DNA from: Myxococcales bacterium
GTDB lineage: Bacteria > Myxococcota > Polyangia > Polyangiales > Polyangiaceae
Direction of reading: 5' to 3'
Length of the DNA stretch: 64,000 bases
Assembly: GCA_003151595.1 (NCBI GenBank)
Contig: PLXW01000049.1
Location: forward strand, 39,431 to 103,430
Of the stretch, positions 15,587 through 48,826 are shown in pieces. The position numbers and the translations under genes were made by a program. Numbering within the stretch: the first letter of the stretch is position 1; every line of letters starts with the position of its first letter. Below the pieces are notes generated by a model, which had not been told where the DNA came from, made no database searches, and was given only the letters and a program-made list of their open reading frames with translations.

Positions 15587-16081
15587 TCAGCCCTCCCCTT
15601 TGTCGACGCCCAGCTCTGCGAGCAGGCGCTCACGCGCCGCGCTGTCGCCGAGCACGGCCTGAATCTTCTTTCGAAACGCCGGAACGTTTCCGAGCGGCCC
15701 CTTGAGAGCCGTCAGCGCGGCGCGCAGCTCAACAAGGGTCCGGATCTCGGGAACCTGTTCGGCGACCGCGTCAGGACCGAAGTCCGACAGTTTCTTGAAC
15801 TTCAATTTCACGGCCATCTCCGCCCCCTTCTCACCGGTGAGGGTGTTGGGGACCGTGAGATCGACGCCGAGGTTGTGCTCGGCCAAGACCTGCTGGAAGT
15901 TGTCTTTGTCGATGTTGATCGGCTTGCGATCCTCGACGGGGCGCTCGTCGGCGTGACCGGTGTAGTCGCCGACGAACAGCATCTTCAGCGGGAGTTCGAC
16001 TTCGGCCTGACGGTCGCCCGTGGCCGGCTTGTAGGTGATGTTGACGCGCTCTTTCGGCGCTACAGACTGGTCGTCCGCCAT
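15587..16081 (-). CDS. tssB: T6SS sheath small subunit TssB (VipA)
   Basis: 164 residues, normal for TssB. It contains RVNITYKPATGDRQAEVELP, LKMLFVGDYTG and KDNFQQVLAEHNLGVDLTVP, all family hallmarks; the C-terminal helical part (LVELRAALTALKGPLGNVPA) interlocks with TssC. ATG at 16081 preceded by GGGAGTAGACC. It sits directly before tssC and 31 bp after tssA. Confidence 0.97.
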   Translation of the reverse strand: MADDQSVAPKERVNITYKPATGDRQAEVELPLKMLFVGDYTGHADERPVEDRKPINIDKDNFQQVLAEHNLGVDLTVPNTLTGEKGAEMAVKLKFKKLSDFGPDAVAEQVPEIRTLVELRAALTALKGPLGNVPAFRKKIQAVLGDSAARERLLAELGVDKGEG

Positions 16082-20108: not shown

Positions 20109-23100
20109 TTGGTCGTGATCAGCCGGGGGCAGTTGTAGGCCTTGAAGAACCCTGGTGTGAGTGGGTTCTCGTTCCGCGAAGGGCGTAGGTCGAGGCTCAC
20201 AGATGCGCTGTCGCGTGTCGCCCGAAGGTCCCAGGTGGCAACGAGAGTCGGCACCCCGTCGGCGCGTCCGCCCGCTCGCCCCGGCTTCACCTGCGCCGCA
20301 TCAATGAGTCGAAATAGTCCGAAGTCACCCGGGCGAGCGATCTCCTCGTCGAGTCCCCCCGCTCCCTTGACCCGCAAGCGCGCGCCGTGCGGCGTCTTGC
20401 CCGGCCACGTGACCGTGAGCCATTCCTCCGGCTCGTTCCGATAGGTGTGCGAGACCCCGTCGACCTCGAACGTCACCTCGCCGATGCTCGGACTGACCGA
20501 GTGAAGGTTCACGTCGAAGACGACGGAGGCGTGATCGGTCTTCGGTGGGTAGAGAGTCGTCGTGAAATCCTGTCCGCGCTTCAGACAGACGTCGAGGAAC
20601 TCCGACGAGTAGGGAATGGCCGATTTGAAGCGTCGGGACGGCGAGAATCCAGCGCCGCTGCGATCGAGTGTGGCCTTGAGTGACTCGTCGTAGAAACTCC
20701 AGAGTGTGCCGTCGCCGGGAGCGAAGAAGTCGAAGAAGTCCTCGAGAGCCGCGTCGCTCGGCGACTGCGCGAAGGGATATTTTCCCTCGAGCTTGTCGTG
20801 CCACTTTTGCCAGACGCTCGCTTCCCAACTCGCGCCCGCGGCCGCCCCGGCATCCTGCACGACGTTCGACCACGCCAGCGTGATGGGGTTCATCAGCAGC
20901 GGTGAGAGAAGTGGGCGCGTAAAGCCGTCCTGCTCCGACAGAAGCGCGCTCGTCGAGCGAAAGGCGTCTTGGAACACGTCGCTGACTTTGCGCGGGTCGC
21001 TCGTATTTTCAGCGTCGCGCAAGTCGGTGAGTGCGCCGACGAGCTTGGCGAGGAGCGCCTCGTATTGGGAGAGCCCCGTCGGCGCGGGATTCTCGGCGTC
21101 CGGAGGGACACCAAATTTCAGGATCGGTTTGAAGGCCTTCTCGACCGGCGAAACGATGCGCTTCTTGGAGACGAGCGGCCCGCCGTCGAGGAGGTCTTTG
21201 GCTTTGTCGACCGCCTTGTCCAAGAGGCTCTTGTCGGCCTCGGGGTCGTCCATATCGAGCACGACGTTCTCGCTCAGCGCGTGAATGAGTCGCAGGTACG
21301 GCCACTCCGGTTCGCTCAGCGCATTCAGCTCGTCGAGCGCCAGCTCGGCGTTGCCCGGATCTTGAACCTGGAGATCGGCGATGAAATCCCTCCAAGCGTT
21401 TCGATACCGCTCGAAGTAGAGGCCGCGCAGCTTGTCTATGGCGCCTTGCGCGCCGACGTCGCCCGCGTCGCCGAGCACCCACTGCTCGGCCGCGAGCTTC
21501 GCGCGCTGCTCGCCGAGGAGCGAGCGAACGCGCGCCCATCCCAGCTTCGTGTACGCGCCATCGACCCGGACCCCTTTCCTTGATTGAACGAAAGGGGCGA
21601 TCGATCCGTAGAAGATGGTCTCGCGACGGATGGCCGCGATCTCCGTATTCGCGTCGCGCACGAGCGATTCGTAGAGGCGCTCCACCTGCGGAACCTGCGC
21701 GAGGATCGACCGCGATCGCGTGACCAGCGCGTCATCCAACTTCCACGGAGGAATCTCCTTCTTTGCGAGGAGATCGAAGACGAACGCGACGTGAGGCAGG
21801 ATGAGATCCTCTTCGCCTTTCACTCGCGCGTGCGAAGTGAGGGACCAGCCTCGTACGAGCCGCGGCGCCGCCCAGGCCGTGTCGATTCGCGTGGCGTCTC
21901 CGAGCATCAAGTAGAGCTTGAGGGTGTCGAAGTCGCGATTGAAGTTCTCGCTCGTACGCATGGGACCGGAGTCCATCGCGCGGAGGTGATCTTCGAGGTC
22001 GGCTTTCGCTCGATCGATCACGGCGCGCGAGACCGCGGTCGCGTAGACGCCGCGTAGCGCGTCGTAGAGATCATTCCCGCAATACATGCCCCAGCGGAGC
22101 TGGACCGGCGGACCGTTGTCTCTCCAATCCGCGAGTTGCTTGAGCCGCTCTTGCGCTGCATCGAGTTGCGGCGCGTTCGTGTCGAGAGCCGCGGTGTCCG
22201 TCCACTTCGTCGATTCGACGCGCCCGGCAATGTCGGCGCTTGAACGAAGGAGCTGCCGATTGTGCGCGAAGGTCAGTACCGCGGGGAAGGTCAGTGACGC
22301 GGCCATGAACATCGCGACGCCCGCGACAGCCAATCGCACGAGCAGCTGCCGCCGCTTCTCGCCTTCGGTCTGACCTGCGAGCAGTTGGTCGGGGAAGATG
22401 ACGCGGCGGAAGACATCCGTCAGGAAGAAGCTCTTCGGCTCGACCGCGCCTCCAGGAGGCCCCGGCATCCGCATTCCAAAGGCCGAAGCCATGGACTGGA
22501 GCACGCGCGACATCGGCCGGACGTTCTGTGTCCCGCTCGTGAAGTAGACCCCCCGGAACGCAGGGGTCTCTTGAAACGCATTGCGCTGAAAGAGCTGCGT
22601 TGCGAAGGTCGATACGTTCGCGCGAAGCGTCGCGAACTCGAGCGGGAACGTCCATAGGAGGCGGCGCGTCTCGACCTGACGCTCGCCGGTCATGCGGCGC
22701 ACGGTGCGCGCCTGGAGAGTGCGGACCAGGAGATCGAACTCGCGCTCGAACAGAACCGCGGGCTCCTCGGGCTGCACCAAGGGGAAACCCATTCCCCAGA
22801 TCTGACCTCGCTCGCTTTTCCGAAGGTCGTTCCAGAACTCGCTAAAGCCGGCAATCATGTCCGTCTTCGTGAAGAGGACGTAGACCGGAACGCGCATCTT
22901 CAAGTGCGTGGTGACTTCGTCGATGCGGGCGCGCATTCGCTTTGCGATGAGCGCGATCTGCTCCTCCGAGGCGCTGGCGACGTCAGTGACGCTGAGCGCG
23001 ACGAGCAGACCGTTGATCGGCTTTCCGGGTCGGTTGCGCTTAAGGAGATCGAGGAACGCGAACCACTCCTGCTGATCGTCGGTGTCGGTCGCGTACCGGC

Positions 23101-23611
23101 CGGCCGTATCGAGGAGAATGGCTTCGTTGGTGAACCACCAGTCGCAGTTGCGCGTGCCGCCCGTGCCTCGGAATGCGGAGCCGGCTTGTTCGATCGGGAA
23201 GTCGAGTCCGGAGTGCCGAATCGCGGTCGTCTTGCCCGCGCCGGGCGGCCCGATGATGACGTACCAGGGGAGCGCGTAGAGCGCCGCGCGCCCCCCCTTC
23301 CCGAGACGACTGCTCTTCAGCGCGGCGATGGCTTGGGTCGCCTGCTGTTGAAGCGCGACGATGTCTTTGCGGCGATCGGGCCGCGCCGCCTCCGCCTGCT
23401 TGGCGCCTTGCGCGAGCAGGTCCCGTTCGAGCCGTCCTGCCCTACGCAGGCGAACGATGAACGAGATGAGCATCCCGATGATCGCCATCGAAAGGACGAT
23501 CACGCTCAGGATGATCTTCGTGCTGAGCGCCAACGCGAAGAACCAGCCGCCTACCCAGATCGCGGTCAGCGCGAAGCAGACGAGAAGGAAGACGAGAGCC
23601 CAGACCAACAT
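20105..23611 (-). CDS. tssM: T6SS inner-membrane protein TssM (IcmF/VasK)
   Basis: 1168 residues, ATG at 23611. Two N-terminal membrane segments (about 3-28 and 33-54), a cytoplasmic NTPase-like domain with Walker A GPPGAGKTT (121-129) and a Walker B-like AILLDTAGRY, a third membrane segment near 430-450 (AVAGVAMFMAASLTFPAVL) and a long periplasmic part ending in the beta-rich domain that binds TssJ. The Walker A motif is intact, unlike in some TssM. It forms the membrane channel with TssL and TssJ. Between tssL (2-bp gap) and tagF (4-bp overlap). Confidence 0.97.
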   Translation of the reverse strand: MLVWALVFLLVCFALTAIWVGGWFFALALSTKIILSVIVLSMAIIGMLISFIVRLRRAGRLERDLLAQGAKQAEAARPDRRKDIVALQQQATQAIAALKSSRLGKGGRAALYALPWYVIIGPPGAGKTTAIRHSGLDFPIEQAGSAFRGTGGTRNCDWWFTNEAILLDTAGRYATDTDDQQEWFAFLDLLKRNRPGKPINGLLVALSVTDVASASEEQIALIAKRMRARIDEVTTHLKMRVPVYVLFTKTDMIAGFSEFWNDLRKSERGQIWGMGFPLVQPEEPAVLFEREFDLLVRTLQARTVRRMTGERQVETRRLLWTFPLEFATLRANVSTFATQLFQRNAFQETPAFRGVYFTSGTQNVRPMSRVLQSMASAFGMRMPGPPGGAVEPKSFFLTDVFRRVIFPDQLLAGQTEGEKRRQLLVRLAVAGVAMFMAASLTFPAVLTFAHNRQLLRSSADIAGRVESTKWTDTAALDTNAPQLDAAQERLKQLADWRDNGPPVQLRWGMYCGNDLYDALRGVYATAVSRAVIDRAKADLEDHLRAMDSGPMRTSENFNRDFDTLKLYLMLGDATRIDTAWAAPRLVRGWSLTSHARVKGEEDLILPHVAFVFDLLAKKEIPPWKLDDALVTRSRSILAQVPQVERLYESLVRDANTEIAAIRRETIFYGSIAPFVQSRKGVRVDGAYTKLGWARVRSLLGEQRAKLAAEQWVLGDAGDVGAQGAIDKLRGLYFERYRNAWRDFIADLQVQDPGNAELALDELNALSEPEWPYLRLIHALSENVVLDMDDPEADKSLLDKAVDKAKDLLDGGPLVSKKRIVSPVEKAFKPILKFGVPPDAENPAPTGLSQYEALLAKLVGALTDLRDAENTSDPRKVSDVFQDAFRSTSALLSEQDGFTRPLLSPLLMNPITLAWSNVVQDAGAAAGASWEASVWQKWHDKLEGKYPFAQSPSDAALEDFFDFFAPGDGTLWSFYDESLKATLDRSGAGFSPSRRFKSAIPYSSEFLDVCLKRGQDFTTTLYPPKTDHASVVFDVNLHSVSPSIGEVTFEVDGVSHTYRNEPEEWLTVTWPGKTPHGARLRVKGAGGLDEEIARPGDFGLFRLIDAAQVKPGRAGGRADGVPTLVATWDLRATRDSASVSLDLRPSRNENPLTPGFFKAYNCPRLITTK

Positions 23612-23613
23612 GG

Positions 23614-24426
23614 CTAAGGCTTCGAGCTCGCGAAGTCGTGCATCGGTTGCACGGCGCTCGCCGTTTGGGCCGAGAGGACGAGGCGAAGTCCCACGAAGGC
23701 CACCAGAGCCAGGAGAAAGAACACGAGCGCGAGCCGGACGATCGGCGCTTCACGCCGAAGGATGCTTCGGACGGCGTCGATAGGTTCGCCGTGAGGGCTG
23801 AGCACTTCCGCTGGCGGCAAGGACTGACTCACTGCCGCGCCAATATGCTCATAGACCGGCGCAAGCCCCGCTGCGCCACCGACCGCGTAGCGACCTTGGA
23901 ACCCGAGTCCGAGGCACAGGAAGTAGATGAGCAACACATGCGCGCGATGAGGTTGACCGAGGAGAACATCCGCACGGCGGAAGAAGTTCTCGCCGGCGAC
24001 ATTTTCGTGGAAGTGCACGTACTGGAGCGGCGAGGTCTGCCACTCGAGTCGACCCGACCAACGCGCTTGGACCAAGATTTCATCGAAAAGCGCCATGAGC
24101 GCGTAGATCGCGTCGTTCGCGTCTTCGTGGGCGATCCCACTTCCGATCGCACGCGCGTGCATCGTGGCGAACTGTTGAGCCAAGTGCTGACGTAGCTCCT
24201 GAGCCGACGGCGGCGTGGCGCCGAGCGCGAACTGCGACGCGAGGGTCAGCAGGTCGGCGCACGCCCAGTACATAGGCTCCGCGAGCGGGTGGGGACCGAT
24301 GGGGCGCCCGCCGCCCGACACCCTCGCCCGAGTGAACATCGGCTGCGGCGGCGGTTGAGCCATCGGCGGCTGCGAGCCCCCGGGACCGCGGGGCGGCTGC
24401 GACTCGATCCGCACGGTCTTGTTCAC
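23614..24426 (-). CDS. tssL: T6SS inner-membrane protein TssL (DotU/IcmH)
   Basis: 270 residues from GTG 24426 (GTGA overlap with the tssJ stop). A Pro/Gln-rich N-terminus precedes the DotU cytoplasmic domain: ALMALFDEILVQARWSGRLE, QYVHFHENVAGENFFRR, VLLIYFLCLGLGFQGRYAV. One C-terminal membrane segment (about 230-250, RLALVFFLLALVAFVGLRLV), then a short tail. There is no OmpA/peptidoglycan-binding extension, so anchoring to the wall must come from another protein. Confidence 0.95.
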   Translation of the reverse strand: MNKTVRIESQPPRGPGGSQPPMAQPPPQPMFTRARVSGGGRPIGPHPLAEPMYWACADLLTLASQFALGATPPSAQELRQHLAQQFATMHARAIGSGIAHEDANDAIYALMALFDEILVQARWSGRLEWQTSPLQYVHFHENVAGENFFRRADVLLGQPHRAHVLLIYFLCLGLGFQGRYAVGGAAGLAPVYEHIGAAVSQSLPPAEVLSPHGEPIDAVRSILRREAPIVRLALVFFLLALVAFVGLRLVLSAQTASAVQPMHDFASSKP

Positions 24427-25031
24427 GGGCCTCTCTTCTTGGGCGCAGGGCTCGTCATCGCGCCGACCTTTTGAAACTCTTCGAGGTGCTCGACGCCGTC
24501 GTCGACCTTGCTGCCGTCGAGCCAGAAGGAGTAGTGGCCGGTTCCGGCCGCGCGCGTGGCGCAGTCCTCCTCTTCGTCATCCGCGGCGCAGGCTTGCGCG
24601 TCGCACTTGCCCGCCTCTGGCGGTGGAGGGAGATCGAAGCTCGAAAACCAGCTTCTCCCCTTCGGCTCCTGGAACAAGGCGACGGCAGCCAAGTGCTGCA
24701 CCGGCTCGGTGCGTTCGAACTTCAGATCGAGACGTGAGCCGGGATAGAGCTCGACCTCATCGACCTTCGCGATGTCCTCGCCGAGCGCAGTCTTGTCGTC
24801 GTGCCAGACCTTGTCGAAGGACGCGTTGTAGAGGCGAGAGTCGTTCTTCAATTGATAGATCCGCACGACGACGGGGCGCGGCGCTCCATTCGGCGTCGGA
24901 TTCACCGCCGGCGACGCGAGCAACGAGACCGTCACCGTCTGCGGCGGGCACTTCTTCGGCACCTCGGGCGGCGGCGTGACGCCGCCACACGCGAGCACGA
25001 GCGCCGCGAGGGCTCCGACCCGCTTGGTCAC
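24423..25031 (-). CDS. tssJ: T6SS outer-membrane lipoprotein TssJ
   Basis: 202 residues from GTG 25031, whose GTGA overlaps the clpV stop; ATG 25046 is an alternative. Leader VTKRVGALAALVLACGG with lipobox VLAC. The mature domain has the TssJ/VasD pattern: VTVSLLASPAVNPTPNGAPR, RPVVVRIYQLKNDSRLYNAS, then ELYPGSRLDLKFERTEP. A Cys-containing acidic insert (AGKCDAQACAADDEEEDCAT) near residue 155 is unusual. It anchors the TssLM complex at the outer membrane. Confidence 0.93.
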   Translation of the reverse strand: MTKRVGALAALVLACGGVTPPPEVPKKCPPQTVTVSLLASPAVNPTPNGAPRPVVVRIYQLKNDSRLYNASFDKVWHDDKTALGEDIAKVDEVELYPGSRLDLKFERTEPVQHLAAVALFQEPKGRSWFSSFDLPPPPEAGKCDAQACAADDEEEDCATRAAGTGHYSFWLDGSKVDDGVEHLEEFQKVGAMTSPAPKKRGP

Positions 25032-27622
25032 GGCGCCCCCACGCATTCGAAATCGCCTCGAGCGTCGACGCCGAGACGTAGCGATCGCGCAGGGCCGCCT
25101 TCCGCGAGCGCGCCGAGAATGTGCTGCGACACGAGCGGGAGGATCGAACCGCGAAGGATGTGATCGACGTTGCGCGCGCCACTCTCGACTTCGCGGCACC
25201 GCGCGGCGATGGCGGCGACCACGGCATCGTCGAACGAGAGCGTCACCTTGTGCGACTCCATCACGCGCGTGGCGACGGCGCCTAGCTTGGTTCGAACGAT
25301 TCCGTCGAGCGCCTCGGGGCGGATGGGAACGTAGGGAACGACCGTCATTCGAGCGAGAAGCGCGGGCTTGAAGTACTCGCTCAGCGTCGGCTTGACGAGC
25401 GCGACGAGCTCGTCGTGTGGAGGAACCGGTGAGCCGGGGTCTGCGGCGCGCGTCAGAAGATCGGTTCCGAGGTTGGAGGTCATCACGATCACGGTGTTCG
25501 AGAAGCTGATGTTGCGCCCCTCGCCGTCGTTGAGCACCCCTTTGTCGAACACTTGGTAAAAGAGGTTCATCACTTCGCGATCGGCCTTCTCCACTTCGTC
25601 GAGGAGAACGACCGAGTACGGCCGCTGACGCACGGCTTCCGTGAGCTTTCCCCCCTCGCCGTATCCGACGTACCCCGGGGGTGAGCCGATGAGACGGGAC
25701 ACCGTGTGGCGCTCCTGGAACTCGCTCATGTTGATCGTGACGAGGAATCGCTCGCCACCGAAGAGGAGGTCAGCCAATCCGAGCGCGGTCTCGGTTTTCC
25801 CTACGCCGCTCGGTCCCACCAGGAAGAAGACGCCCAACGGCGGCCCCGGCGGCTTCAGACCCGATCGCGCTGCGCGAAGCTCGCGCCCGATGACCGCCAG
25901 CGCGCCGTCCTGACCACGAACGCGCTCGCGAAGCTTCGGTTCGAGACCGACGATGGCGTGAACGTCGTCCTGGACCATCCGACCAACGGGGATCCCAGTC
26001 CAATCGCCGACGACCGCGGCGACGATGTCTTCGTCGACGTCCGCTCGGACGAGACGCTTCTCGTGGGGGACGGCGCGCAGCTCATCGAGTGCCCGGACGA
26101 GATCTTCGCGCGGTCCCTTCGAGGCGCGGAGCTCGTCGACACGCGCGACGAGAGCGCGCTGCGCGATGACGTCCGCCTCGATGCGCTCGCCATCTCGACG
26201 ACGGGTGTCGCGCAGATCGGTCGCGCCACCGCGCGCTCCCTCTTCTACGGGGTGCCCGGCGGCATGATCGCGATCGAGCGCATCGATTTGGCGATCGAGC
26301 GACGCGAGCTCCGCGCGAACGTCCTCGAGCGCGCTCGGCGTCGCGGCGCGAAGGATCTTCGCGCGCGCGGCTGCCGTATCGAGCAGGTCGACCGCCTTGT
26401 CGGGGAGCAATCGCCCCGTGATGTAGCGGCTCGAGAGAACGACGGCCGCGCGCACCGCTTCGTCCCGAACGAGGACGCCGTGCGCCTCTTCGAAGCGCCG
26501 CGCGAGACCGCGGATCATGCCGATGGCCTGATCGATCGACGGCTCCTCGACCTTGACGGGCTGAAAGCGCCGTTCGAGCGCCGCATCCTTTTCGAAGTAG
26601 CGTTTGTACTCGGCCCAAGTAGTCGCGGCGATGGTTCGCAGCTCACCGCGAGCGAGAGCGGGTTTGAGGAGGTTGGCTGCGTCGCTTCCCCCCTGCGCGC
26701 CGCCGGCGCCGATGATCGTGTGCGCCTCGTCGATGAAGAGGACGATCGGCTTCGGCGACGCCTTCACCTCGGTGATCACGCCGCGGAGTCGGTTTTCGAA
26801 CTCGCCCTTCACGCCGGCGCCGGCTTGAAGCGCGCCGAGGTCGAGGACGAGAAGCTGCACGTCACTCAGCTGCGCGGGCACGTCACCCGCGGCGATGCGG
26901 AGTGCGAGCCCTTCGACGAGCGCGGTCTTCCCGACGCCCGGCTCGCCCACGATGATCGGGTTGTTCTTTCGGCGCCGGCAAAGGATGTCGACCACTTGCC
27001 GGACTTCCGCCTCTCGGCCGAAGACGGGATCGAGCTCGCCCTTTTTCGCGCGCTCCGTGAGGTTCGTCGTGAACCGAGCGAGCGCACCGTCACCCGCAGG
27101 CGCGGTGCCAGGAGTCTGTCCGGCGCCCTGCTCACGCGAGGTGACCGCGGCCTCCCCGCTGTCCACGGCGAGAGTCGCCAGATTCTTTCGCAGCTCGTCG
27201 CGCGGGATCTCGTCGAGACCCGGGAGATTCGACGCGAGATAGCGCGTCGGCGCCTGGACGAGGCGAACGAGGAGCGCCCCCGATCGAACGCGCGCGTCAC
27301 CGAGCTCCGTCGAAGCGTAGAGCCAGGCGTCCTGAATCCATTCGAGGAGGATCGGGCTGAACACAGGCTTCCCGGCGTTCCCGGATCGCTGTTCTTCGAG
27401 CGCCCGCTGGAGCGCACCCCGAATGCGCGACGGCTCAACATGGAACCGTTCGAGGATCGCGATGATGTCGCTCTCGCGGTCGTCGATGAGCGCGAGCAGC
27501 ACGTGCTCGGCCGACACTTCGTAGTGACGCCCCGTGATGCACGCGCCCGCGCCGCGCTCGAATGCGCGCGTGCAAACCGGATTGAGCTTGTCGAGGAGTG
27601 ACTTCGGTTCGACTAGAAGCAT
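25028..27622 (-). CDS. clpV: T6SS sheath-recycling AAA+ ATPase ClpV
   Basis: 864 residues, ATG at 27622. N domain (about 1-150), then two AAA+ modules: Walker A1 GEPGVGKT (226-233) with Walker B1 VLFIDEA (294-300), and Walker A2 GPSGVGKT (603-610) with Walker B2 VVLLDEVEKA (671-680). A middle coiled-coil region (about 440-540) is present, somewhat short. ClpV unfolds TssC to recycle contracted sheaths. The synteny with tssJLM and tssABC makes TssH/ClpV, not housekeeping ClpB, the right call. Confidence 0.96.
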   Translation of the reverse strand: MLLVEPKSLLDKLNPVCTRAFERGAGACITGRHYEVSAEHVLLALIDDRESDIIAILERFHVEPSRIRGALQRALEEQRSGNAGKPVFSPILLEWIQDAWLYASTELGDARVRSGALLVRLVQAPTRYLASNLPGLDEIPRDELRKNLATLAVDSGEAAVTSREQGAGQTPGTAPAGDGALARFTTNLTERAKKGELDPVFGREAEVRQVVDILCRRRKNNPIIVGEPGVGKTALVEGLALRIAAGDVPAQLSDVQLLVLDLGALQAGAGVKGEFENRLRGVITEVKASPKPIVLFIDEAHTIIGAGGAQGGSDAANLLKPALARGELRTIAATTWAEYKRYFEKDAALERRFQPVKVEEPSIDQAIGMIRGLARRFEEAHGVLVRDEAVRAAVVLSSRYITGRLLPDKAVDLLDTAAARAKILRAATPSALEDVRAELASLDRQIDALDRDHAAGHPVEEGARGGATDLRDTRRRDGERIEADVIAQRALVARVDELRASKGPREDLVRALDELRAVPHEKRLVRADVDEDIVAAVVGDWTGIPVGRMVQDDVHAIVGLEPKLRERVRGQDGALAVIGRELRAARSGLKPPGPPLGVFFLVGPSGVGKTETALGLADLLFGGERFLVTINMSEFQERHTVSRLIGSPPGYVGYGEGGKLTEAVRQRPYSVVLLDEVEKADREVMNLFYQVFDKGVLNDGEGRNISFSNTVIVMTSNLGTDLLTRAADPGSPVPPHDELVALVKPTLSEYFKPALLARMTVVPYVPIRPEALDGIVRTKLGAVATRVMESHKVTLSFDDAVVAAIAARCREVESGARNVDHILRGSILPLVSQHILGALAEGGPARSLRLGVDARGDFECVGAP

Positions 27623-29923: not shown

Positions 29924-30319
29924 TTAGAGAACGTCTATCGACCGCGACGCGCTCATATGGGTTTCGAAGCGGACGGGCGCATCCTTCGAATCCACCAGCA
30001 TCGCCCTGATTTCGAATCGCACCATCAGCTCGAGCGATGTGCTCGGAACATGAGTGATGCGCACGTTCTTCAGTCGAGGCTCGTACGTCTCGATCGTATG
30101 AGCGAGAGCGTCGCGGAGCTTCGAGAGCGCGTCCGGAAACGAGTGGACGAGCTCCCCAAGGTCGGGAAGACCATAATCGGGCCGCGAGCGAATTGAGCCG
30201 CGGCGCGTGCGGCACATGTTCTTGAGATGTTCGAGAACGCTGGCGCGGATCGCAGCGTCGGCGCCCGAGGCGGCGAGCGCCGCCTCAGGAGCACGAAGGC
30301 GCGCCAGCAGCGCGGCCAT
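29924..30319 (-). CDS. tssE: T6SS baseplate protein TssE (gp25-like)
   Basis: 131 residues from ATG 30319, overlapping the hcp stop by one base (TGATG). It has RGSIRSRPDYGLPDLGELVH, then HTIETYEPRLKNVRITHVPS and LMVRFEIRAML, the gp25-like fold of phage baseplate wedges. The usual conserved ExR-type motif is seen as the Glu/Arg of ETYEPRL. TssE joins TssF/TssG/TssK in the wedge. Confidence 0.93.
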   Translation of the reverse strand: MAALLARLRAPEAALAASGADAAIRASVLEHLKNMCRTRRGSIRSRPDYGLPDLGELVHSFPDALSKLRDALAHTIETYEPRLKNVRITHVPSTSLELMVRFEIRAMLVDSKDAPVRFETHMSASRSIDVL

Positions 30320-30816
30320 CAGGAACCGGGCGTGTTCCAGTCGTCGGAGGCCGAGGTGCTCGCGAGAGGAGCTTCGACGGTGATCTGACGGAAGCGGAAG
30401 CTGATGTCCTCGAGCTGGTCGACGTCGTTCTCGACCTTCTCCTTGGCGTGATCGTTCGTGTACCGGCGAATGTTCACGATCACGGCGTCCTTCAAGGTGA
30501 CGCGCTCCGTGACCTGCTCCTTGGCTCCGGTCGCGGTCCGGTTCACCATTTCGAGAATGACTTCGTCGAAGACTTCGTTGGTCCACTGCGCCTGAAGCAA
30601 CTGCGGTGAAGCGTTGCCGCGCTCCATGGTGACGCGAACCGGCTCGTGTTGACGGAAGCCCTTCACCTCCCCGCTGTTCGTGTCGACGGGAACCGACGAT
30701 CCCATCTCGAACGAGATCACCTCGGTCCACTTGTCCGAGCGACCCGTTTTCGGGCTGGAGGCCTTGAGCTGCCCCTGCTTTTTCGCTTTGAACGAGATGT
30801 AGCTCTGAAATGACAT
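30319..30816 (-). CDS. hcp: T6SS tube protein Hcp (TssD)
   Basis: 165 residues, ATG at 30816. Starts MSFQSYISFKAKKQGQLKAS; later FRQHEPVRVTMERGNASPQL, RVTLKDAVIVNIRRYTND and LEDISFRFRQITVE match the Hcp fold, which forms stacked hexameric rings. A 135-bp gap to the divergent lipoprotein gene at 30952 should hold its promoter, including a CCAAACGG-type repeat. Confidence 0.95.
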   Translation of the reverse strand: MSFQSYISFKAKKQGQLKASSPKTGRSDKWTEVISFEMGSSVPVDTNSGEVKGFRQHEPVRVTMERGNASPQLLQAQWTNEVFDEVILEMVNRTATGAKEQVTERVTLKDAVIVNIRRYTNDHAKEKVENDVDQLEDISFRFRQITVEAPLASTSASDDWNTPGS

Positions 30817-30951
30817 TGGTCTGGTCTCCTCGGCACGGCCTTGATGCGCGAAGCGCGCGCATCCATCAACGTCGCGAGAGCCTAACCGTGGCCCCTACGC
30901 TCATCAAGGCAGGCGCCTGTCACCCAAACGGATGATACAGTCGCGCGCGAC

Positions 30952-31890
30952 ATGCGCGTGGGGCTCGTTTTCATCGTCTTGGCGGCGGCATGCGCGGCCC
31001 CTCCCCAACGCAAGCCGCTCGAGGATCAGACGCGCCGCGTAGCGCCGCTCCCCGCGTGCGTCGAGTACCTCCCTGCGCGGCGGGCGGAGACGGCGGGGAC
31101 GCTGCGACGGCTACGAGAAGAGCAAATCGCGAAGCTCGTCTTCCCGACGTTCGACGAGGAGAAGCGCGCGCTTCCGAAGGGGGCGCTCGCGTGCACGGGG
31201 CGCAACGTTCTCGACGATGCCGTGCTGTCGGGGGGTGGGCCCGTACGCGGGGCGTGGCCGATCGTGGAAGAGGACGGCGACGCGCTGTACGGGAGCGGCG
31301 GAGATCACATCAAGGTCATCTGGCTGCGAATCCTGACGTGGCCTGATGGAACCGTGGGCGGGCCGATCGCCATCGTTCGCCCGACGGAGAAGTTCGCCGA
31401 GCTCTTCGCGGTGGGCGCCTACCGAGGGCACGCGGAAAGAGTGAACCTCGGGACGCAGCGCATGGGAAACGACCTTCTCATCACCGCCGAGGAGAACAAT
31501 TGTGCGGGCCGCAAGGAGGGCGAGCCGTGCGAGAACCGGATGACGGTTTTTCTTCCGCGACGCGGCACTCTTCTTCGCATCGTCGATCTGCCGATCGAGC
31601 GCGTCGCCTACGCCGGCCAGTCGGAGCGCGGGGCCACAGGACCGCTCGAGTACCATCTGACGACCACTGCCGATTACAAAGACGACGGGATTCACCTCAC
31701 GGAGCAGATCCGCGTCCTCGACGACAATGGGCGGGACCTTCGGAAGGCCGAGCTCGAACGTCAGTTCGCGATCGACGACATCAAAGGGACGATGGTCGCG
31801 AGCGAGCCGCCGCTCTGGGACCGCGTCGTCAAGCCGGAGCCGCCGCCGCCACCGCAAACACCGGACGCCCACCCGCCGCATCACCGGTGA
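30952..31890 (+). CDS. Hypothetical lipoprotein within the T6SS island
   Basis: 312 residues, ATG at 30952, lipobox LAAAC right after MRVGLVFIVL. An alpha/beta domain follows, with ACVEYLPARRAETAGTLRRL and KVIWLRILTWPDGTVGGP and paired Cys (ENNCAGRKEGEPCENRMTVF). The tail is Pro/His-rich (PPPPPQTPDAHPPHHR). No family known. Its last 62 bp overlap the 3' end of tssG on the other strand. Transcribed against the surrounding T6SS genes, divergent from hcp. Confidence 0.7.
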   Translation: MRVGLVFIVLAAACAAPPQRKPLEDQTRRVAPLPACVEYLPARRAETAGTLRRLREEQIAKLVFPTFDEEKRALPKGALACTGRNVLDDAVLSGGGPVRGAWPIVEEDGDALYGSGGDHIKVIWLRILTWPDGTVGGPIAIVRPTEKFAELFAVGAYRGHAERVNLGTQRMGNDLLITAEENNCAGRKEGEPCENRMTVFLPRRGTLLRIVDLPIERVAYAGQSERGATGPLEYHLTTTADYKDDGIHLTEQIRVLDDNGRDLRKAELERQFAIDDIKGTMVASEPPLWDRVVKPEPPPPPQTPDAHPPHHR

Positions 31891-32884
31891 GCGGGACTCG
31901 AACGAGCAGCGAGCGATCGGTGCGGGGGCGAACGACGAGGGTGTTCGAGCCTAGTCGCGTGCCGTAACGAGCCCCGAGTCGCGCGCGTGGCTCTTCGCCG
32001 CGTCGGATCTCGATCTCCGCATCGACGTCGAGCATCCCACCGGTAACGGAGTCGACGATCGCGCGGAGTCGCGAATGGTTCACGGTGCCTGGCAGCAAAG
32101 CGTCGAAGGCAGCGCGGTCGACGGGACCGACGACGAGCCGGAGGAGACCAGACTGCCGAAGGAGCCGCGCTCCGAGGCGCGCCCCGCGTCCGAGGTCGAC
32201 GTTTCTGACCCCAAGTTGGGAGCGCTCGCTCGCAGGGAGCGCGACATCACGAGTCAGAAAATCGATCACTCGAATCGGCGTGCCGGGAAAGCCGACCGCG
32301 AGCGCTCTCTCCAGGGCGTCCCGCGTACGAGGGCGTCGCCCCATGACGCGCGCTAGACCGAGCCACTGCCTCGGCGCGAGCCCCGCTTCACCCGCAGGAC
32401 GAGCCGTGAGCCCCGCAAAGTTCAGCGACCGACGCGTGACGCGATCGGAACCGTCCGCGCGAATCTCGGCCCAGGCCGAGGCGCGAAGCTCGGCCGAATA
32501 CACGAACGCGATGAGGCGATGGTGAAAGAGATCGTAGAAGGCGCGGACCGATTCCTCGTCGAGCGACTCCGCGCGGAGCACGTCGTCGGTGAAATAGTTC
32601 GCGAGCGGCGACACGCTCCCGACGACGCCGAGAAAACCGGTCGTCAGCTCTACGCGCAGCGCGTCGCCGTGGTGAACGACGCGGAGACGAGTGATGTCGC
32701 TCGCGTGAAAGATGGGGTGGATGTCGTGACGAAAGCGCACCACCTCCGCCGCGGCTGGTCCGAGACCACCGACACGCGCGTCAGCTTGGAACAGGCGCTC
32801 GAGGTGGCGGACGAGCGCAAAGAACGGGACGCGCCGCGCGCGCAGCGCCAGTTCGTTCAGCTCGCGTTCGAGACTTCGGTCCAT
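31829..32884 (-). CDS. tssG: T6SS baseplate protein TssG
   Basis: 351 residues, ATG at 32884. Family-typical parts: VPFFALVRHLERLFQ, EVVRFRHDIHPIFHASDITR, GFLGVVGSVSPLANYFTDDV, and DLFHHRLIAFVY. The rest, with HSRLRAIVDSVTGGMLDVDA, fits. TssG holds two TssF subunits and one TssE in the wedge. It starts 3 bp after the stop of the first tssF gene. Confidence 0.93.
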   Translation of the reverse strand: MDRSLERELNELALRARRVPFFALVRHLERLFQADARVGGLGPAAAEVVRFRHDIHPIFHASDITRLRVVHHGDALRVELTTGFLGVVGSVSPLANYFTDDVLRAESLDEESVRAFYDLFHHRLIAFVYSAELRASAWAEIRADGSDRVTRRSLNFAGLTARPAGEAGLAPRQWLGLARVMGRRPRTRDALERALAVGFPGTPIRVIDFLTRDVALPASERSQLGVRNVDLGRGARLGARLLRQSGLLRLVVGPVDRAAFDALLPGTVNHSRLRAIVDSVTGGMLDVDAEIEIRRGEEPRARLGARYGTRLGSNTLVVRPRTDRSLLVRVPLTGDAAGGRPVFAVAAAAPA

Positions 32885-32887
32885 GGC

Positions 32888-34600
32888 TCAGAGAACGACG
32901 CGCGTTCCAAAACGTGAAGCGTAGTCGAAGAGCGCCGCCCCCTGTGCGTCGCGAAGGGCGAGCTCCACCCATTCGTGGGTCCGAAGCGTGGAAGCCAACA
33001 GGGAGACGAGGCACTCGCCGAGCAGATCGATGTCTCCGCGGCTCGCGAAGTGATCCTCGTTCAGGTCGACGTCGATGTGCGTTCCTGGAAAAACCTGATC
33101 CTGCCCCGCCCGCGTGAGGCGCTGCGTCCGCACCGAGACGATCGCTTCGAACGAGTCGGCGTTCGCCTTGGATGCAGGCCACCGCGCCCACGCCGCAACG
33201 TTCGCGAGTGCGAGCGCCGCAGCGAGGGAGTCCCGGTCCGTGAGCTGCACGAAGTTCGTCTTGAGAAGCTGAAACCAACGCCAGAGGCGATCGTCGTCGA
33301 CGACCGCCGGCGCTGAGCGCGTGACGGGGGTGATGTTGCGGAAGGAGACCAGCGGCGGCGAGGCAGCCGTCGGAACGCAGACCTCTCCTACGGACACACG
33401 TGCTGCGCGGTCGCCATCCGTCACGAACAACTCGACGTCGACTGACGCCGCATCGGCAGGCAGTCGGCCACTCTCGGCGTGCACGAAGACGAGTCCCAGA
33501 TCGAGCTCGGGCCCGACGACGGATCCCCGACGAGAGACGCGGTACAAGAGGGGCAAGTGTCCGTTGTCGCCGATGGGCGGCGGGAAGAAACGGGCGTAGG
33601 GCTGCGCGACGATCGTCGAGAGGTTCTCCCGCACCACCGAGACCCTTTCGATAGCGTAGACCTGGGCATCCGGCGGTTGGATCGCGCAGCGTTCACCGAC
33701 GAGCGGAGCGGAAAGACTCGTCATTCGACGCACGTTGACGGCAGGAACACAGTGCAGCCGCACGCTGGTCGCATCGAGGTGAAGCGATTTCGGCAGAGCG
33801 CTGCGAAGGCGAAAGACGATCTCGAATGCGCGCACCTTCTCGCCGAGTGCGGCGAGTCGATCGAGGTTCGGGATCGCGACGAACGCGAATTGCTCGGGCC
33901 ATGTGAAGTAGGCGCGAAGCGCGAAGAACGGGTCCTTCGTAGCCTCTTCGAAGGCGTCTTCGGACCCCGCGCTTCCTCCGACCAGCTCGGCGGCGGAGGC
34001 GAGAGCGATCTCGCCCTTTCCGCTCGGGGTTCGGGCGATCACCGTCTCGGTCGCCCGCAAAAGCGCGCTCCGGAGCTCGAGCGCGGCGCCGGCGGGCATC
34101 GCGAAAAACAGACGAAGCGATCCGCTCGGCGCGCCGAACGCCGCGCCTGAGAGAAGCGAGAAGCGCAGACGGATCTCCGTCCGCTCGCTCACGACGTCGA
34201 CGCCATCGAGCGACCAAGGACGAACGTCGGCGTCGAGCGTCGAGCGAAAGAGGCAGGGCGCGCCGCCGCTTGGACGGCTCGCGAAGACACTCGCCGCGCG
34301 AGCCACCTGTGGCTCTTGCATCGCGGGATCCGGAACGAGCTCCATGATCGTGGCGCTCGGCATCGGACGAAGGAGCCATGGGTGCAGGCTCTCGATCACG
34401 GGGTGCACGACATCGGGAAGATCGTCGTCGAGACGCTGACGGAGACGCGCCGACAAGAAGGCCATCCCTTGGACGAGCCGAGACACGCCTGGGTCCGCGT
34501 CGCGACCGAGCATCGGGGCGATGCGCGCTTGCTCTCGCCCGAGCTCCTCGGCGAGGCCGTGGAGGTATTCGATCTCGGCGGCGTAAAGGTCGCGAAACAT
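32888..34600 (-). CDS. tssF: T6SS baseplate protein TssF, canonical N-terminus
   Basis: 570 residues, ATG at 34600. The N-terminus MFRDLYAAEIEYLHGLAEEL, then VSRLVQGMAFLSARLRQRLD is standard TssF. Later, FFALRAYFTWPEQFAFVAIP, LHCVPAVNVRR and a C-terminal GTHIDVDLNEDHFASRGDI domain match as well. TssF forms the wedge with TssG. It lies 4 bp after a second, divergent TssF gene. Confidence 0.92.
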   Translation of the reverse strand: MFRDLYAAEIEYLHGLAEELGREQARIAPMLGRDADPGVSRLVQGMAFLSARLRQRLDDDLPDVVHPVIESLHPWLLRPMPSATIMELVPDPAMQEPQVARAASVFASRPSGGAPCLFRSTLDADVRPWSLDGVDVVSERTEIRLRFSLLSGAAFGAPSGSLRLFFAMPAGAALELRSALLRATETVIARTPSGKGEIALASAAELVGGSAGSEDAFEEATKDPFFALRAYFTWPEQFAFVAIPNLDRLAALGEKVRAFEIVFRLRSALPKSLHLDATSVRLHCVPAVNVRRMTSLSAPLVGERCAIQPPDAQVYAIERVSVVRENLSTIVAQPYARFFPPPIGDNGHLPLLYRVSRRGSVVGPELDLGLVFVHAESGRLPADAASVDVELFVTDGDRAARVSVGEVCVPTAASPPLVSFRNITPVTRSAPAVVDDDRLWRWFQLLKTNFVQLTDRDSLAAALALANVAAWARWPASKANADSFEAIVSVRTQRLTRAGQDQVFPGTHIDVDLNEDHFASRGDIDLLGECLVSLLASTLRTHEWVELALRDAQGAALFDYASRFGTRVVL

Positions 34601-34604
34601 CCGT

Positions 34605-36320
34605 CTACCCGATCGTCCTCTCGCCGTTGAGCGCCGGAAAGCGGAATTGCTTGCCCGTAGTGACGAGATGGATCGTCGTCCTCACGAATGCGTTGAGGGA
34701 GGCCTCGTGCGCGAACAACCGCGCGAGCACTTGCCCGAAGAGGAACACCTCGCCTTCCCCGTCGAACGAGCCTTCCGAGAGCCGCACGCGGACGTCGTGG
34801 CCGCGAACCATGGAGCCGTCCAATCGCTCGACGGCGGCGGTCGCCTCGACCTCGAGGATCGCCTCGAGCCGCTGTGCGTGGGCGCGTGCCGCTTGGGGAT
34901 CGGAGAGCGCATGGAGGTCGAGGGCGTGGAGAAGCGTGCGAATCGAATCGCGCTGCGCGAGCGTTCGCGCGGAGAGCGCAGCGAGGGCGAGCGTCCTCCA
35001 CACGAGGGCCTCGCCGTGCGCGGCGGGGCGGTAGGGAGTGATCGCGCGAACGTTGCGGAAGGTCAGACCGCGGGGCGACGACGGAGCGGCGACGCGGACG
35101 TCACCGACGCCGAGCGAAGTGGGCAAGCCGCGATTGGTCGCCCACAGGTCGATCGAGAGCACATCGATCTCGGATTCCACGGTCGTAGCCGAGGAGGAGG
35201 TCGTCGCGATCGAGACGTCGACACCGAGACCGGAGCGGCTCGCGACACGTTCGAGGGCGTAGAACATCCCGCGCGCTTCGTCCGGAGCTGCGCCGAAATC
35301 CGTGACGGGCGAGACGGGGACGCGATCGCCATTGCTGCAGAGCGCGACGGCTCCCGTGATCGAGTAGACCTCGCCATGCTGCGGACGTATTCCCGCGGGT
35401 CGCACGGGATGCGCCGGTCGCTCCAGCGAAGGCCGCACGGGGTCGGCGCTCGTCGCGAAGACGTTGACGACAGGGATGCAGTTCGTCCGGATCGAATCGG
35501 CGTCGACGCGCACGCTCGCCGGCATCGCCGTGTCGAAACGGAACCGAAGGGTGATGCGGGACGCGGGCGTCGTGTCCGCGAGGACCGGACCGTCCACTTC
35601 CACGAAGGCGAACTTTGCGGGGAGGATCATGAGCTCGCGCAGAAGGCGAAACCCCGGATGCTCGAGCGGCTCGACCGGCAGCAGCGCCTCTTCGCGACGA
35701 AGCCCCCACGCACGCGCCGCGCCTCGCCCGAGCGGTGTGGTGACTCCATTCACCTCGAGCTCGGCGTCGGCGAGATGCTGTTGGAACCAGGCGAGCAACA
35801 GGAGCGCCGAGCGCGGCTCGCCTGTCAGGTGAAGGCGCAACGGCAGCGGCGCGCTCGACTCGCCAGCGCGAAGCGTTCCGAGCGGCGCGAGGCCGACCTC
35901 GAGTGACTGTCCGTGAGCTTGAGTCCACGCAAGCTTGGCATCCGCGACACGCCACGGGACGAAGGCGAAGGGGGCATGCGCGCGAAAGCGGCAGCGCGTG
36001 CCGTCCACGGCGACGCTGTCGAATTCGGCCCCCGCGGCGAACGACTCGCGCAGGTTTCGGCGCGACGCGAGCTCGAGGATCGTGGCGCACGGGAACGGGC
36101 GGAGCACTTCCGGCGAGAGGAGCTCGGCGAAGTGGAGAACGGAGCGAAGAGAGGTCGCATCGATGACCCGCTCGACGCGACGGGCGAGGGCGGTGAATCC
36201 CTCGAAAAGGCGCTCGACGTCAGGGTCGTCCCCCGAGCGCGCGAGGCGGTCGGCGAGCGCGGGGAAGGCGCGCGCGAACTCGTCGGCGTGCTCCGGCGCC
36301 GGATCCTGCGGAGTACCCAT
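34605..36320 (-). CDS. Second TssF-like protein
   Basis: 571 residues, ATG at 36320. It shares the TssF pattern with its neighbour: VERLFEGFTALARRVERVID, ELLSPEVLRPFPCATILELA, GFRLLRELMILPAKFAFVEV, TNCIPVVNVFATSADPVRPS and a C-terminal VFLFGQVLARLFAHEASLNA with QFRFPALNGERTIG. The start lacks the Y-E-x-E-L-x-Y-L segment seen in the first copy, while the C-terminus looks closer to classical TssF. Length is normal and no frame damage is seen, so both copies should be functional. Confidence 0.85.
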   Translation of the reverse strand: MGTPQDPAPEHADEFARAFPALADRLARSGDDPDVERLFEGFTALARRVERVIDATSLRSVLHFAELLSPEVLRPFPCATILELASRRNLRESFAAGAEFDSVAVDGTRCRFRAHAPFAFVPWRVADAKLAWTQAHGQSLEVGLAPLGTLRAGESSAPLPLRLHLTGEPRSALLLLAWFQQHLADAELEVNGVTTPLGRGAARAWGLRREEALLPVEPLEHPGFRLLRELMILPAKFAFVEVDGPVLADTTPASRITLRFRFDTAMPASVRVDADSIRTNCIPVVNVFATSADPVRPSLERPAHPVRPAGIRPQHGEVYSITGAVALCSNGDRVPVSPVTDFGAAPDEARGMFYALERVASRSGLGVDVSIATTSSSATTVESEIDVLSIDLWATNRGLPTSLGVGDVRVAAPSSPRGLTFRNVRAITPYRPAAHGEALVWRTLALAALSARTLAQRDSIRTLLHALDLHALSDPQAARAHAQRLEAILEVEATAAVERLDGSMVRGHDVRVRLSEGSFDGEGEVFLFGQVLARLFAHEASLNAFVRTTIHLVTTGKQFRFPALNGERTIG

Positions 36321-39942: not shown

Positions 39943-39951
39943 ATTTCGCCC

Positions 39952-44152: not shown

Positions 44153-46441
44153 TCAGTTGACCGCGACCGTGCTCCCCTTCAGTGCGACCTTGTCTCCCTT
44201 GATATTCGCTTCGGAGGACGCTTCGACGCTCACGTTCTTCCCCTTCACGGTGATGGTCCCGTCTTTTGCCAACGAGAGCGTCGAGTCTCCCGTCTTCAAG
44301 ACGATGTCACCGTCCTTGGTAAGCGTGAGGCTCGCGTCGTCCCCGACTTTCAGCACGTACTCTTCGCCAGCCTTGATTGCGTACGTCGAGCCGACGCCGA
44401 GCGTCTCGTTGGACCCAATGCTCGTCCCTCGCTGACCCCCGATCGTGATGTTCTCGTCTCCCCCGACACTCTCCGTACGCCCACCGCCGACCGTCGTCGT
44501 CTCGTCTCCCGCGACGGTCTTCACCCGCGTACCGACCGTCACGGCTTCGCTCGCGGCGGTGAGGCTCCTCGCAGCGCCCACGAGCACCGTGTCCGCCACG
44601 GCAATCATCTTCGTCTGACTCCCCATGACCGTCAGCGAGTCGTCACCGCCGATTTGCGTCGTCCGGTTCGCCCCGATCTGGGCGCTCTCGTTCGCGCCGA
44701 TCGAGATCGTCTCGTTTGCGCCGATCGAGATCGTCTCATTGTTACCAACGCTGAGCGATCGATCCGTGCCTACCGAGATCGTCTGGTTCGATCCGATCGT
44801 CACACTCTGATTCGACCCGACGTTGGCCGTGTGATTCGCGCCGATGCTTTCGTTGTGGTCGTTGAGGATGGTCTCGTTTTGATCCTTCTGCGCGTGAAGG
44901 ATGATCTGCTCGCTCCCCGTCTTGTTCTCGAACGTGATCTCGTTGTAGCCGGTCCCGCCCGGGATCCCGCGCACCTTCCACGTGCTGCGCGACTGGTTAC
45001 CGGGCTGCTTGTACGGCTGCCCCTCTTGGCCGTTGTAGACGGCGCCGATGACGATGGGGCGATCGATGTCGCCGTCGAGAAAGTCGACGAGCACCTCGGC
45101 GCCGACGCGGTGCGCGGTCCAGAAGCCTTCGCTCGCGTGGGCGTTCGGTGTCGCCATGCGGATCGCGCACGAGCTGTGCTGATCGAACTTGCCGTCGCGA
45201 TCCCACATGAACTGAACGTTGATGCGGCCGAAGCCGTCCACGTTCGGATCCCCTTCGGCGGGGCCCACGACGCGCGCCGTCTGCAACCGCGAGAGCGGCT
45301 TTCGCTTTCGCGCCGGGCGGATGGGTGTGTCGGCGAGGACGGCCACGAACTGCACGAGCTCGAGATCCGTGCGCGCGCCGCGCGAGGTACCGCTCTGATC
45401 GAACGCGCCCTGCACGCTTCCGCTCAGCGTCACGTCGGTCACCACGAGCTTGCCGTTGAAGGCCTTGTCACTGTGCCCCGTGAGCGAGAACTGCCCTCCG
45501 GAGAACAAGCGCGGCGTCGACGACGTGCCCATCATGACGTTTGCGTCGGTGCGTAGCTCCTCGAGCCGCATCTTCGCGCGAGGCGTCCCCTCGGCGTCCG
45601 GGTCGGTGAACCCGCCCGGGTAGTCGCGCCATTCGCGGCGCGTCGTGTTGGCTTCGCTCTGCGCGCCCGTCGTTTCGGAGCGTCCGACGAGCGCGAGCCT
45701 CGGCTTGGTGAAGTCGTAGTCGCGGTGCTCGACCGCGCCTGTACGCACGCGGCTCCCGCGTCGGATGCTCCGCACGTGGTCGCCCGTGACGGAACCTCCG
45801 GTGTCACGAAAATCGAGGGTCGAGGTGCCATCGACCGGATGAAACCCCTTAGGGTTGTTCGTGAAGACGAGCGTCGTCTTGTCGGACGTGTGCTCGAAGA
45901 AAAACGTCAGCCCCTCGTCGGCCGCCAAGCGCTCTAGGAATTCGAGATCGCTCTCGTCGAGCTGCGTTCGGTAGTCACGCACCGCCGGGTCCGGGCGCAG
46001 GCGCCATTCGACGTCGACGCGCTCGGGGGCGACGAGCGCCGTGATGATGTCCTTCACGCTCTGCTGCTGGAAGATGCGAAAGCCGCCCGAGTAGCGAAGG
46101 TTCGCAAGGCGCGGCTCGATCACGATCGACGAGCGGGCTTGATTCGTACCGACGTACGAACCGTCGGGCCAGATCTCGGTGAGGATGCCGTGGACGCCGC
46201 GCTCGAAGGCACCGTCGCGCTGGATGAGGAACGTCGCCTCTTTGCCGAGCGAGGCCTCGAGGTTCGCGACGTCGTCAGGCGAGGTCGCGACGTCGAGCGC
46301 GTAGCGGAAGAGGGAGGAGAGGTGCTCGTCGCCGCGGAACGACGCGACGCGCACGGCGTCCGCCGCGAACCCGGGGATCTCCACGAGGCATTCGAGATTC
46401 TCGTGGATGGGTCCCACGGACGCGTCGGGCGCGTTCGCCAT
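44153..46441 (-). CDS. vgrG: T6SS spike protein VgrG (TssI)
   Basis: 762 residues, ATG at 46441. N-terminal gp27-like part (RYALDVATSPDDVANLEASL; EFLERLAADEGLTFFFEHTS), a gp5-like OB fold (AEGDPNVDGFGRINVQFMWD, SCAIRMATPNAHASEGFWTA, VLVDFLDGDIDRPIVIGAVY) and a C-terminal beta-helix. The helix has about 15 short repeats of type x-I-G-x-N-x-T/S; the matching DNA (44690-44830) is visibly repetitive. No effector extension is present; cargo is presumably the separate PAAR-like nuclease. 141 bp separate its start from the upstream gene. Confidence 0.96.
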   Translation of the reverse strand: MANAPDASVGPIHENLECLVEIPGFAADAVRVASFRGDEHLSSLFRYALDVATSPDDVANLEASLGKEATFLIQRDGAFERGVHGILTEIWPDGSYVGTNQARSSIVIEPRLANLRYSGGFRIFQQQSVKDIITALVAPERVDVEWRLRPDPAVRDYRTQLDESDLEFLERLAADEGLTFFFEHTSDKTTLVFTNNPKGFHPVDGTSTLDFRDTGGSVTGDHVRSIRRGSRVRTGAVEHRDYDFTKPRLALVGRSETTGAQSEANTTRREWRDYPGGFTDPDAEGTPRAKMRLEELRTDANVMMGTSSTPRLFSGGQFSLTGHSDKAFNGKLVVTDVTLSGSVQGAFDQSGTSRGARTDLELVQFVAVLADTPIRPARKRKPLSRLQTARVVGPAEGDPNVDGFGRINVQFMWDRDGKFDQHSSCAIRMATPNAHASEGFWTAHRVGAEVLVDFLDGDIDRPIVIGAVYNGQEGQPYKQPGNQSRSTWKVRGIPGGTGYNEITFENKTGSEQIILHAQKDQNETILNDHNESIGANHTANVGSNQSVTIGSNQTISVGTDRSLSVGNNETISIGANETISIGANESAQIGANRTTQIGGDDSLTVMGSQTKMIAVADTVLVGAARSLTAASEAVTVGTRVKTVAGDETTTVGGGRTESVGGDENITIGGQRGTSIGSNETLGVGSTYAIKAGEEYVLKVGDDASLTLTKDGDIVLKTGDSTLSLAKDGTITVKGKNVSVEASSEANIKGDKVALKGSTVAVN

Positions 46442-48755: not shown

Positions 48756-48826
48756 TGAGGGATGCAGGCTGGCTGAGGGATGGGCGGGGCGCAATGCGCC
48801 CAAACGGACGACAAGGGGAGCCGAGC

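Follow-up and report, generated by a model that had tools for sequence, protein, structure and literature searches.

In phage T4, a single gp6 gene fills both slots of the wedge. The baseplate of the EAEC T6SS is described in passages of PMC6300606 as having a wedge of two copies of one TssF and one TssG, in which the proximal TssF touches VgrG and the peripheral TssF touches TssB/TssC, while the proximal and peripheral TssFs of adjacent wedges seal the baseplate ring. Heteromeric wedges are described for eCIS, one example being AlgoCIS, whose unfused Alg11 forms a cage around the spike (passages of PMC8894135).

The window considered here, i.e., the whole stretch of 64,000 nucleotides that was analyzed, departs from the canonical arrangement of one tssF per tssG, as two TssF genes stand beside one TssG, and iterated profiles find two TssFs, one TssG, and one TssK in its full length. 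The pair and its neighbor are as follows.

34605..36320, minus strand: TssF-B, 571 aa, first in the transcription order of the pair (PF05947 and TIGR03359)
34601..34604, minus strand: spacer of 4 bp from the stop of B (TAG) to the start of A (ATG), from the sequence
32888..34600, minus strand: TssF-A, 570 aa, second in the pair (PF05947 and TIGR03359)
31829..32884, minus strand: TssG, the sole one found in the window (PF06996, 211.9 bits; TIGR03347, 204.3 bits; iterated profile)

TssG starts 3 bp past A, so that the order on the minus strand is B, A, TssG, and the 4-bp spacing of A and B makes their co-expression likely. The rest of the locus comprises the following features.

14100..15584, minus strand: TssC sheath (TIGR03355, 701.8 bits)
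15587..16081, minus strand: TssB sheath (TIGR03358, 180.8 bits)
16113..18602, minus strand: open reading frame with TssA, matched at residues 314-793 (TIGR03362, 277.7 bits)
17687..19045, minus strand: TssK, the sole one found in the window (PF05936, 364.7 bits; TIGR03353, 350.4 bits; iterated profile)
20105..23611, minus strand: TssM (TIGR03348, 771.9 bits)
23614..24426, minus strand: TssL (TIGR03349, 158.3 bits)
24423..25199, minus strand: TssJ (TIGR03352, 95.1 bits)
25028..27622, minus strand: ClpV/TssH-type ATPase (PF07724, PF17871, PF02861)
29924..30862, minus strand: open reading frame with a TssE, gp25-like domain at residues 205-291, its true start probably internal (PF04965, 54 bits)
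30319..30816, minus strand: Hcp (PF05638, 67 bits; TIGR03344, 80.8 bits)
44153..46441, minus strand: VgrG (PF05954, PF22178, PF04717)

The presence of TssA, B, C, E, J, K, L, and M together with a ClpV-type ATPase, Hcp, and VgrG identifies the system as a TssJLM-type T6SS. Both A and B belong to TssF, given full-length matches above the curated cut-offs, a TssF fold, and a tssG adjoining them in a T6SS locus. PF05947 gives 249.8 bits for A and 328.7 for B (cut-off 25), and TIGR03359 gives 276.8 and 358.7 (cut-off 260.3), with nearly the entire length matched in each case. These matches bear out the tandem of two full-length TssF genes beside a single TssG that the initial annotation had read from the sequence, and the profile search that it proposed places the protein starting at 34605 inside the family, as the better scorer of the two. 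The wedge from which it started, two copies of one TssF per TssG, is that of EAEC in the passages of PMC6300606. Its further statement that the two copies differ mainly at their N- and C-termini does not hold, as the divergence runs throughout (26% identity over 581 columns, E 5e-33 by BLASTP), even if the N-terminal segment that it singled out is indeed particular to A: E9 is found in 21/21 and Y12 in 19/21 of the A rows, against E9 in 4/21 and an aromatic residue at Y12 in 0/21 of the B rows.

Regarding the known systems, A and B resemble the canonical TssF of the EAEC TssK-TssF-TssG complex (PDB 6N38, 6GIY) in family and fold, and the canonical gene likewise lies adjacent to TssG, in a locus with TssK, TssE, and TssJLM genes. 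The difference is that one TssF fills both copies in EAEC, as far as the source passages go, whereas the window encodes two TssFs that share only 26% identity. Two gp6-like subunits and one gp7-like subunit per wedge also make up the (gp6)2-gp7 wedge of phage T4 (passages of PMC6300606 and PMC5813253). With eCIS, the window shares, at the gene level only, two different gp6-like subunits per gp7-like subunit. Unlike eCIS, it has TssK, TssJLM, and a separate TssG, so that no second gp6-like part stands in one chain with the gp7-like part, and both of its TssFs fall in PF05947 and come from a duplication within the TssF family.

Relatives of the pair are numerous. A protein search, in which only the candidates with the most shared words were scored for A and for B, returned at least 37 relatives of A and at least 146 of B (120 of the 146 among the matches listed). 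For at least 15 of the 37 relatives of A, a relative of B is apparently on the same contig, among the matches listed, which suggests a pair; P0034, one protein present in both lists, and one match to a distant B row (38% identity) are left out of these 15. In the genome collection, A finds 21 loci. Three of them, in Polyangiaceae and a Myxococcales genome (L001, L002, and L003), have B, A, and TssG in that order, and at the other 18 one TssF each was found, which scores 137-328 bits with the profile of A and 175-427 bits with that of B. Within the order of G003, the A profile matches in 87 of 183 genomes (seven candidates scored per genome, so that some pairs may have been missed); six of these 87 have A orthologues above 640 bits, and the next best match has 415 bits. 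The order B-A-TssG is kept at all seven of the type-1 loci examined, the window included.

The ratio of the two gene families sets these six Polyangiales genomes apart. By PF05947 and PF06996, their TssF:TssG counts are 4:2, 6:3, 2:1, 8:4, 6:3, and 6:3, or 32:16 in total. All the TssFs found are paired by position, and every one of the 16 clusters has two TssFs per TssG; no unpaired TssF was found by PF05947 in the six genomes, and no pair is reduced to a single gene in the 16 clusters. One pair of G002 is at a contig end, and a third TssG, presumably that pair's own, is on another contig. In 40 control genomes of Myxococcota, there are 43 full-length TssFs and 41 TssGs, with equal numbers in 38; the exceptions are G173, with two TssFs and one TssG, and G177, whose TssF, located at a contig end, has no TssG. 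These controls were chosen by the author as those listed up to G330 among 68 TssF-bearing genomes (without G001 and G002), leaving out eight genomes with only weak or broken matches, and the survey behind them scored at most three candidates per genome, so that pairs may have been missed. The count omits the weak matches, nine for TssF (at most 92 bits) and five for TssG (below 35 bits), takes two TssGs split into two matches once each, and includes the full-length TssG of G222 (73.7 bits). When the weak, divergent matches are included, the numbers become 52 TssFs and 46 TssGs, equal in 34 of 40 genomes, and by contig and position no weak TssF match lies beside a full-length TssF in the controls. 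Among 398 genomes of Pseudomonadota, 87 of them with TssF, no two intact TssF matches were found within 20 kb, at most three candidates being scored per genome, so that here too pairs may have been missed.

Five of the six Polyangiales genomes (G001, G002, and G473-475) also contain a second type of cluster, at 10 loci (L064-L066, L106-L108, L110, L111, L113, and L114), with the layout TssF-A2, Hcp-like, TssE-like, TssF-B2, TssG, TssK1, TssC, TssK2, VgrG. L066, which lies at a contig end, has the order B2-A2. The NCBI names of the type-2 proteins are simply TssF. Single-sequence searches flag an Hcp-like frame at seven of the 10 loci, a TssE-like one at five, and VgrG at four; the same searches found TssB at none of the 10, several of the stretches stopping inside the cluster. 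The number of TssKs per genome (3, 5, 1, 7, 5, and 5) equals the sum of one TssK for each type-1 cluster and two for each type-2 cluster, and in a TssK tree of 22 rows, which has three long terminal branches and one row less than half filled, K1 forms one group (91/92) and K2 another (100/100). At L107, both TssKs are confirmed by Pfam (229.5 and 141.3 bits), and the TssF scores are 110 bits for A2 and 197.6 bits for B2. B2 and TssG form one open frame of 974-1142 aa at five of the 10 loci, which come from three genomes, an example being L107, where Pfam places TssF at residues 93-637 and TssG at 680-971; the two lie in separate frames at four loci, and L066 ends before TssG. The layout of these five loci, A2 plus a B2/TssG frame, matches that of the eCIS wedge (Alg11-Alg12 of AlgoCIS, with its equivalents in PVC and AFP), as given in the source passages. 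An internal TssG start inside the shared frame may exist.

Taken as a whole, the pair is probably a subfunctionalised duplication of TssF, with A and B both needed and filling the two non-equivalent slots of each wedge. The baseplate would then consist of six repeats of a TssF-A/TssF-B/TssG heterotrimer, in which the same wedge would take both A and B, each of the two would no longer be able to fill the slot of the other, and assembly would require both. A shared B2/TssG frame would fix B2 and TssG at 1:1, each TssG bringing one B2, and would leave the second TssF slot for A2; by orthology, the same division of slots would apply to B and A in the window. The heterodimeric wedge suggested by the initial annotation thus gains indirect support from the gene ratio, the tree, the shared frames, the residue losses, and the precedent of eCIS, even if it is better termed an A-B-TssG heterotrimer.

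The AF2 monomers of A (pLDDT 85.1) and B (pLDDT 86.9) both match the TssF chains of the EAEC wedge, the best chains being 6n38_I and 6giy_B for A, and 6n38_H and 6giy_A for B. The preference for one conformer is small (TM by target length 0.78 vs 0.76 for A, and 0.82 vs 0.77 for B), and when the chains are ranked by Foldseek E-value alone, both models place 6giy_B ahead of 6giy_A, so we take from the models just a hint that A and B lean toward different wedge conformers. Assigning the slots from the PDB chain letters was tried and set aside: the passages of the Park paper do not specify the proximal chain, which makes the conformer leaning weak evidence only for the slots.

Specialization is also seen at the level of residues. 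The 33 single TssFs conserve 154 columns, of which A alone retains 11 (seven N-terminal, four central, none C-terminal) and B alone 23 (5, 13, and 5, respectively); by Fisher's test, the split is weak for the N-terminus against the rest (p 0.026), and p is 0.15 for the C-terminus against the rest. Judged from the aligned sequences, the two lineages have lost different sets of the residues that ordinary TssFs conserve. Nine of the asymmetries are common to A2 and B2, two of them kept in A and A2 and seven in B and B2; a column altered on one branch passes to both cluster types. For instance, D/E60 is found in 33/33 singles, 21/21 A, and 6/8 A2 proteins, against 0/21 B and 1/8 B2, and K/R at B236 in 33/33 singles, 21/21 B, and 8/8 B2, against 6/21 A and 0/8 A2. 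Six of the nine lie at residues 20-71 of A, and five of these (A 40-71) fall about where residues 47-85 of EAEC TssF align, A49 aligning near EAEC 57. That segment of EAEC TssF is helical and makes up a three-helix bundle together with TssG and the second TssF copy (passages of PMC6300606). If the analogy with eCIS holds, A would be the spike-facing copy; the placement of the conserved residues, with 7 of the 11 A-only columns N-terminal and 18 of the 23 B-only columns central or C-terminal, might point in the opposite direction, and the residue pattern does not settle the slots.

These losses bear on a first alternative, in which the wedges would be homodimeric, A-A or B-B on one shared TssG, so that two kinds of baseplate would exist, e.g., for different VgrGs or growth conditions. 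Each of the two proteins retains the TssF fold in the models, and a condition-dependent swap is compatible with the locus, though the close spacing makes co-expression likely. We regard it as unlikely, because one TssG would have to accept both dimers despite the different conserved residues lost in the two lineages, the pair is never down to one gene in the 16 clusters, and the frame shared by B2 and TssG in half of the type-2 loci would couple each TssG to a single B2.

The age of the pair was assessed with a tree of 55 TssFs, selected from the 92 rows of a quick tree. A and A2 group together (100/100), as do B and B2 (100/98), apart from 17 single TssFs, and AU tests reject the clades A2+B2 (p 0.0032), A+B (p 9.2e-5), and A+B2 (p 1.5e-4); these groupings were named after the quick tree was known, and A2 and B2 are on long branches. 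The careful tree leaves out L073 (G374) and both proteins of G173 (L072), and the pairs of L001, L002, L065, L112, and L113 were not entered as loci. L073 is a single, very divergent TssF, which the quick tree placed on the side of B. Given the groupings and the AU rejections, the pair is most likely older than the divergence of the two cluster types and was kept through it, as far as sequences can tell. A recent duplication is rejected by the 26% identity and the tree, and independent duplications in the two cluster types are rejected by the AU tests. Moreover, the between-species distances of A and B run in parallel over 18 pairs, 14 of them matched by an inferred shared contig (Mantel r 0.946, with 0 of 2000 permutations as high), the A distances being on average 1.16 times those of B, which is as expected for co-inherited genes.

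The covariation of A and B speaks to some extent, even if co-inheritance alone would give it, against a second alternative, namely that only one of the two is a wedge TssF, the other having kept the fold and taken a new job as assembly factor, effector adaptor, or part of the membrane anchor. For such a role, A would be the candidate by its greater distance from the TssF profile, and A2 is farther still at L107. Yet A retains N-terminal residues of ordinary TssFs that are absent from B, and a B2-TssG wedge alone would hold one TssF, as against two in the wedges of T6SS and T4 (passages of PMC6300606 and PMC5813253), and we consider this alternative quite improbable. Finally, a duplication that is recent or neutral and has no functional meaning, or an error of annotation, has the tandem layout alone in its favor. 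The chance of it is very slight, and we consider it refuted by the tree and by conservation, namely the low identity, the full-length relatives found for each of A and B, the occurrence of the pair in distant species, and the AU tests.

The subfunctionalised pair may not be the only case of its kind. The cluster of G173, which holds the only TssG found in that genome, encodes TssA, B, C, E, F, VgrG, a second F, G, ClpV, a weak Hcp match, K, L, and M, and its two TssFs, 30% identical, group with the single TssFs rather than with A or B (quick tree only). On balance, we lean toward the view that these T6SSs of Polyangiales moved from a wedge with repeated subunits to one in which every slot has its own gene and that, since G173 would have reached two TssFs per TssG by its own route, this breaking of baseplate symmetry evolved at least twice, converging on the eCIS design. 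The window would, on this somewhat favored reading, have its own gene for each TssF slot, and type-2 clusters one for each TssF slot and each TssK-trimer slot. In the latter, the two TssFs, one TssG, and two TssKs would, with the same measure of confidence, fit the 2:1:2 slots that the known wedge has, and one TssF would often be joined to TssG in a single chain, as in eCIS.

Heteromeric gp6-type wedges are already known from eCIS, and what appears to be new is a candidate one, proposed from gene content, in a TssF/TssG-type T6SS. No report of two different TssFs in one wedge of this type was found in the literature searched, judged mainly by titles and abstract openings, where the words tssF1 and tssF2 do occur, and in passages of PMC10781749, PMC13373197, PMC8406304, PMC5813253, and PMC8894135. 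In a wedge made from one gene, the two copies of TssF have different partners, VgrG inside and the sheath outside, and they can be neither mutated nor tagged separately. A natural system in which each position has its own gene would make the job of each slot testable by single-gene removal and by position-specific tags. The pair would show how asymmetry arises in a contractile machine from a part that was repeated, and it would link the baseplates of T6SSs to the heteromeric wedges of eCIS.

A T6SS cluster in the genome G173 (L072:7412-18756, on contig G173:C21) encodes two TssFs, which are 30% identical and non-adjacent, together with one TssG and one TssK. This cluster is unrelated to that of the window, and is an independent instance of two TssFs per TssG.

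Regarding TssK, the type-2 clusters, i.e., the second T6SS cluster type found in relatives of the window, contain two TssK genes, one on either side of TssC, in agreement with the TssK counts of the six Polyangiales genomes that have TssF pairs. The known wedge has two TssK-trimer sites, a number equal to that of the TssK genes in these clusters. The stretches concerned are:

L106:3118-7501
L107:14346-18405
L108:3371-7433
L110:14239-18373
L111:1260-5448
L113:12005-16139
L114:1829-6208
L064:5634-9000

Other genes of the window are listed below:

9743-10885, phage-type integrase (PF00589)
36368-37678, TIGR02270-type protein (187.7 bits)
39043-40815, Tox-PAAR-like protein (PF13665), then TsiV-like immunity protein (PF11876)
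41865-42896, DUF2169 protein
42910-44136, TIGR02270-type protein (108.4 bits)
47427-49094, T6SS FHA protein (PF20232, PF00498)

Both TIGR02270-type proteins lie inside the T6SS locus, score below the TIGR02270 cut-off of 206.8 bits, and have HEAT-repeat matches. The DUF2169 and FHA proteins are likely accessory components of this locus, and the Tox-PAAR-like and TsiV-like proteins likely form a T6SS cargo/immunity pair. About 3 kb separates the integrase from TssC.

Finally, six loci from other genomes (L067, L068, L069, L070, L071, and L074) contain highly divergent TssF-like ORFs of 542-603 aa, whose match to the TssF family PF05947 is confined to approximately the first 360 positions; four of these loci also have a TssK-like ORF nearby, whose match is weak. 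These divergent proteins perhaps represent a further T6SS class in Myxococcota.
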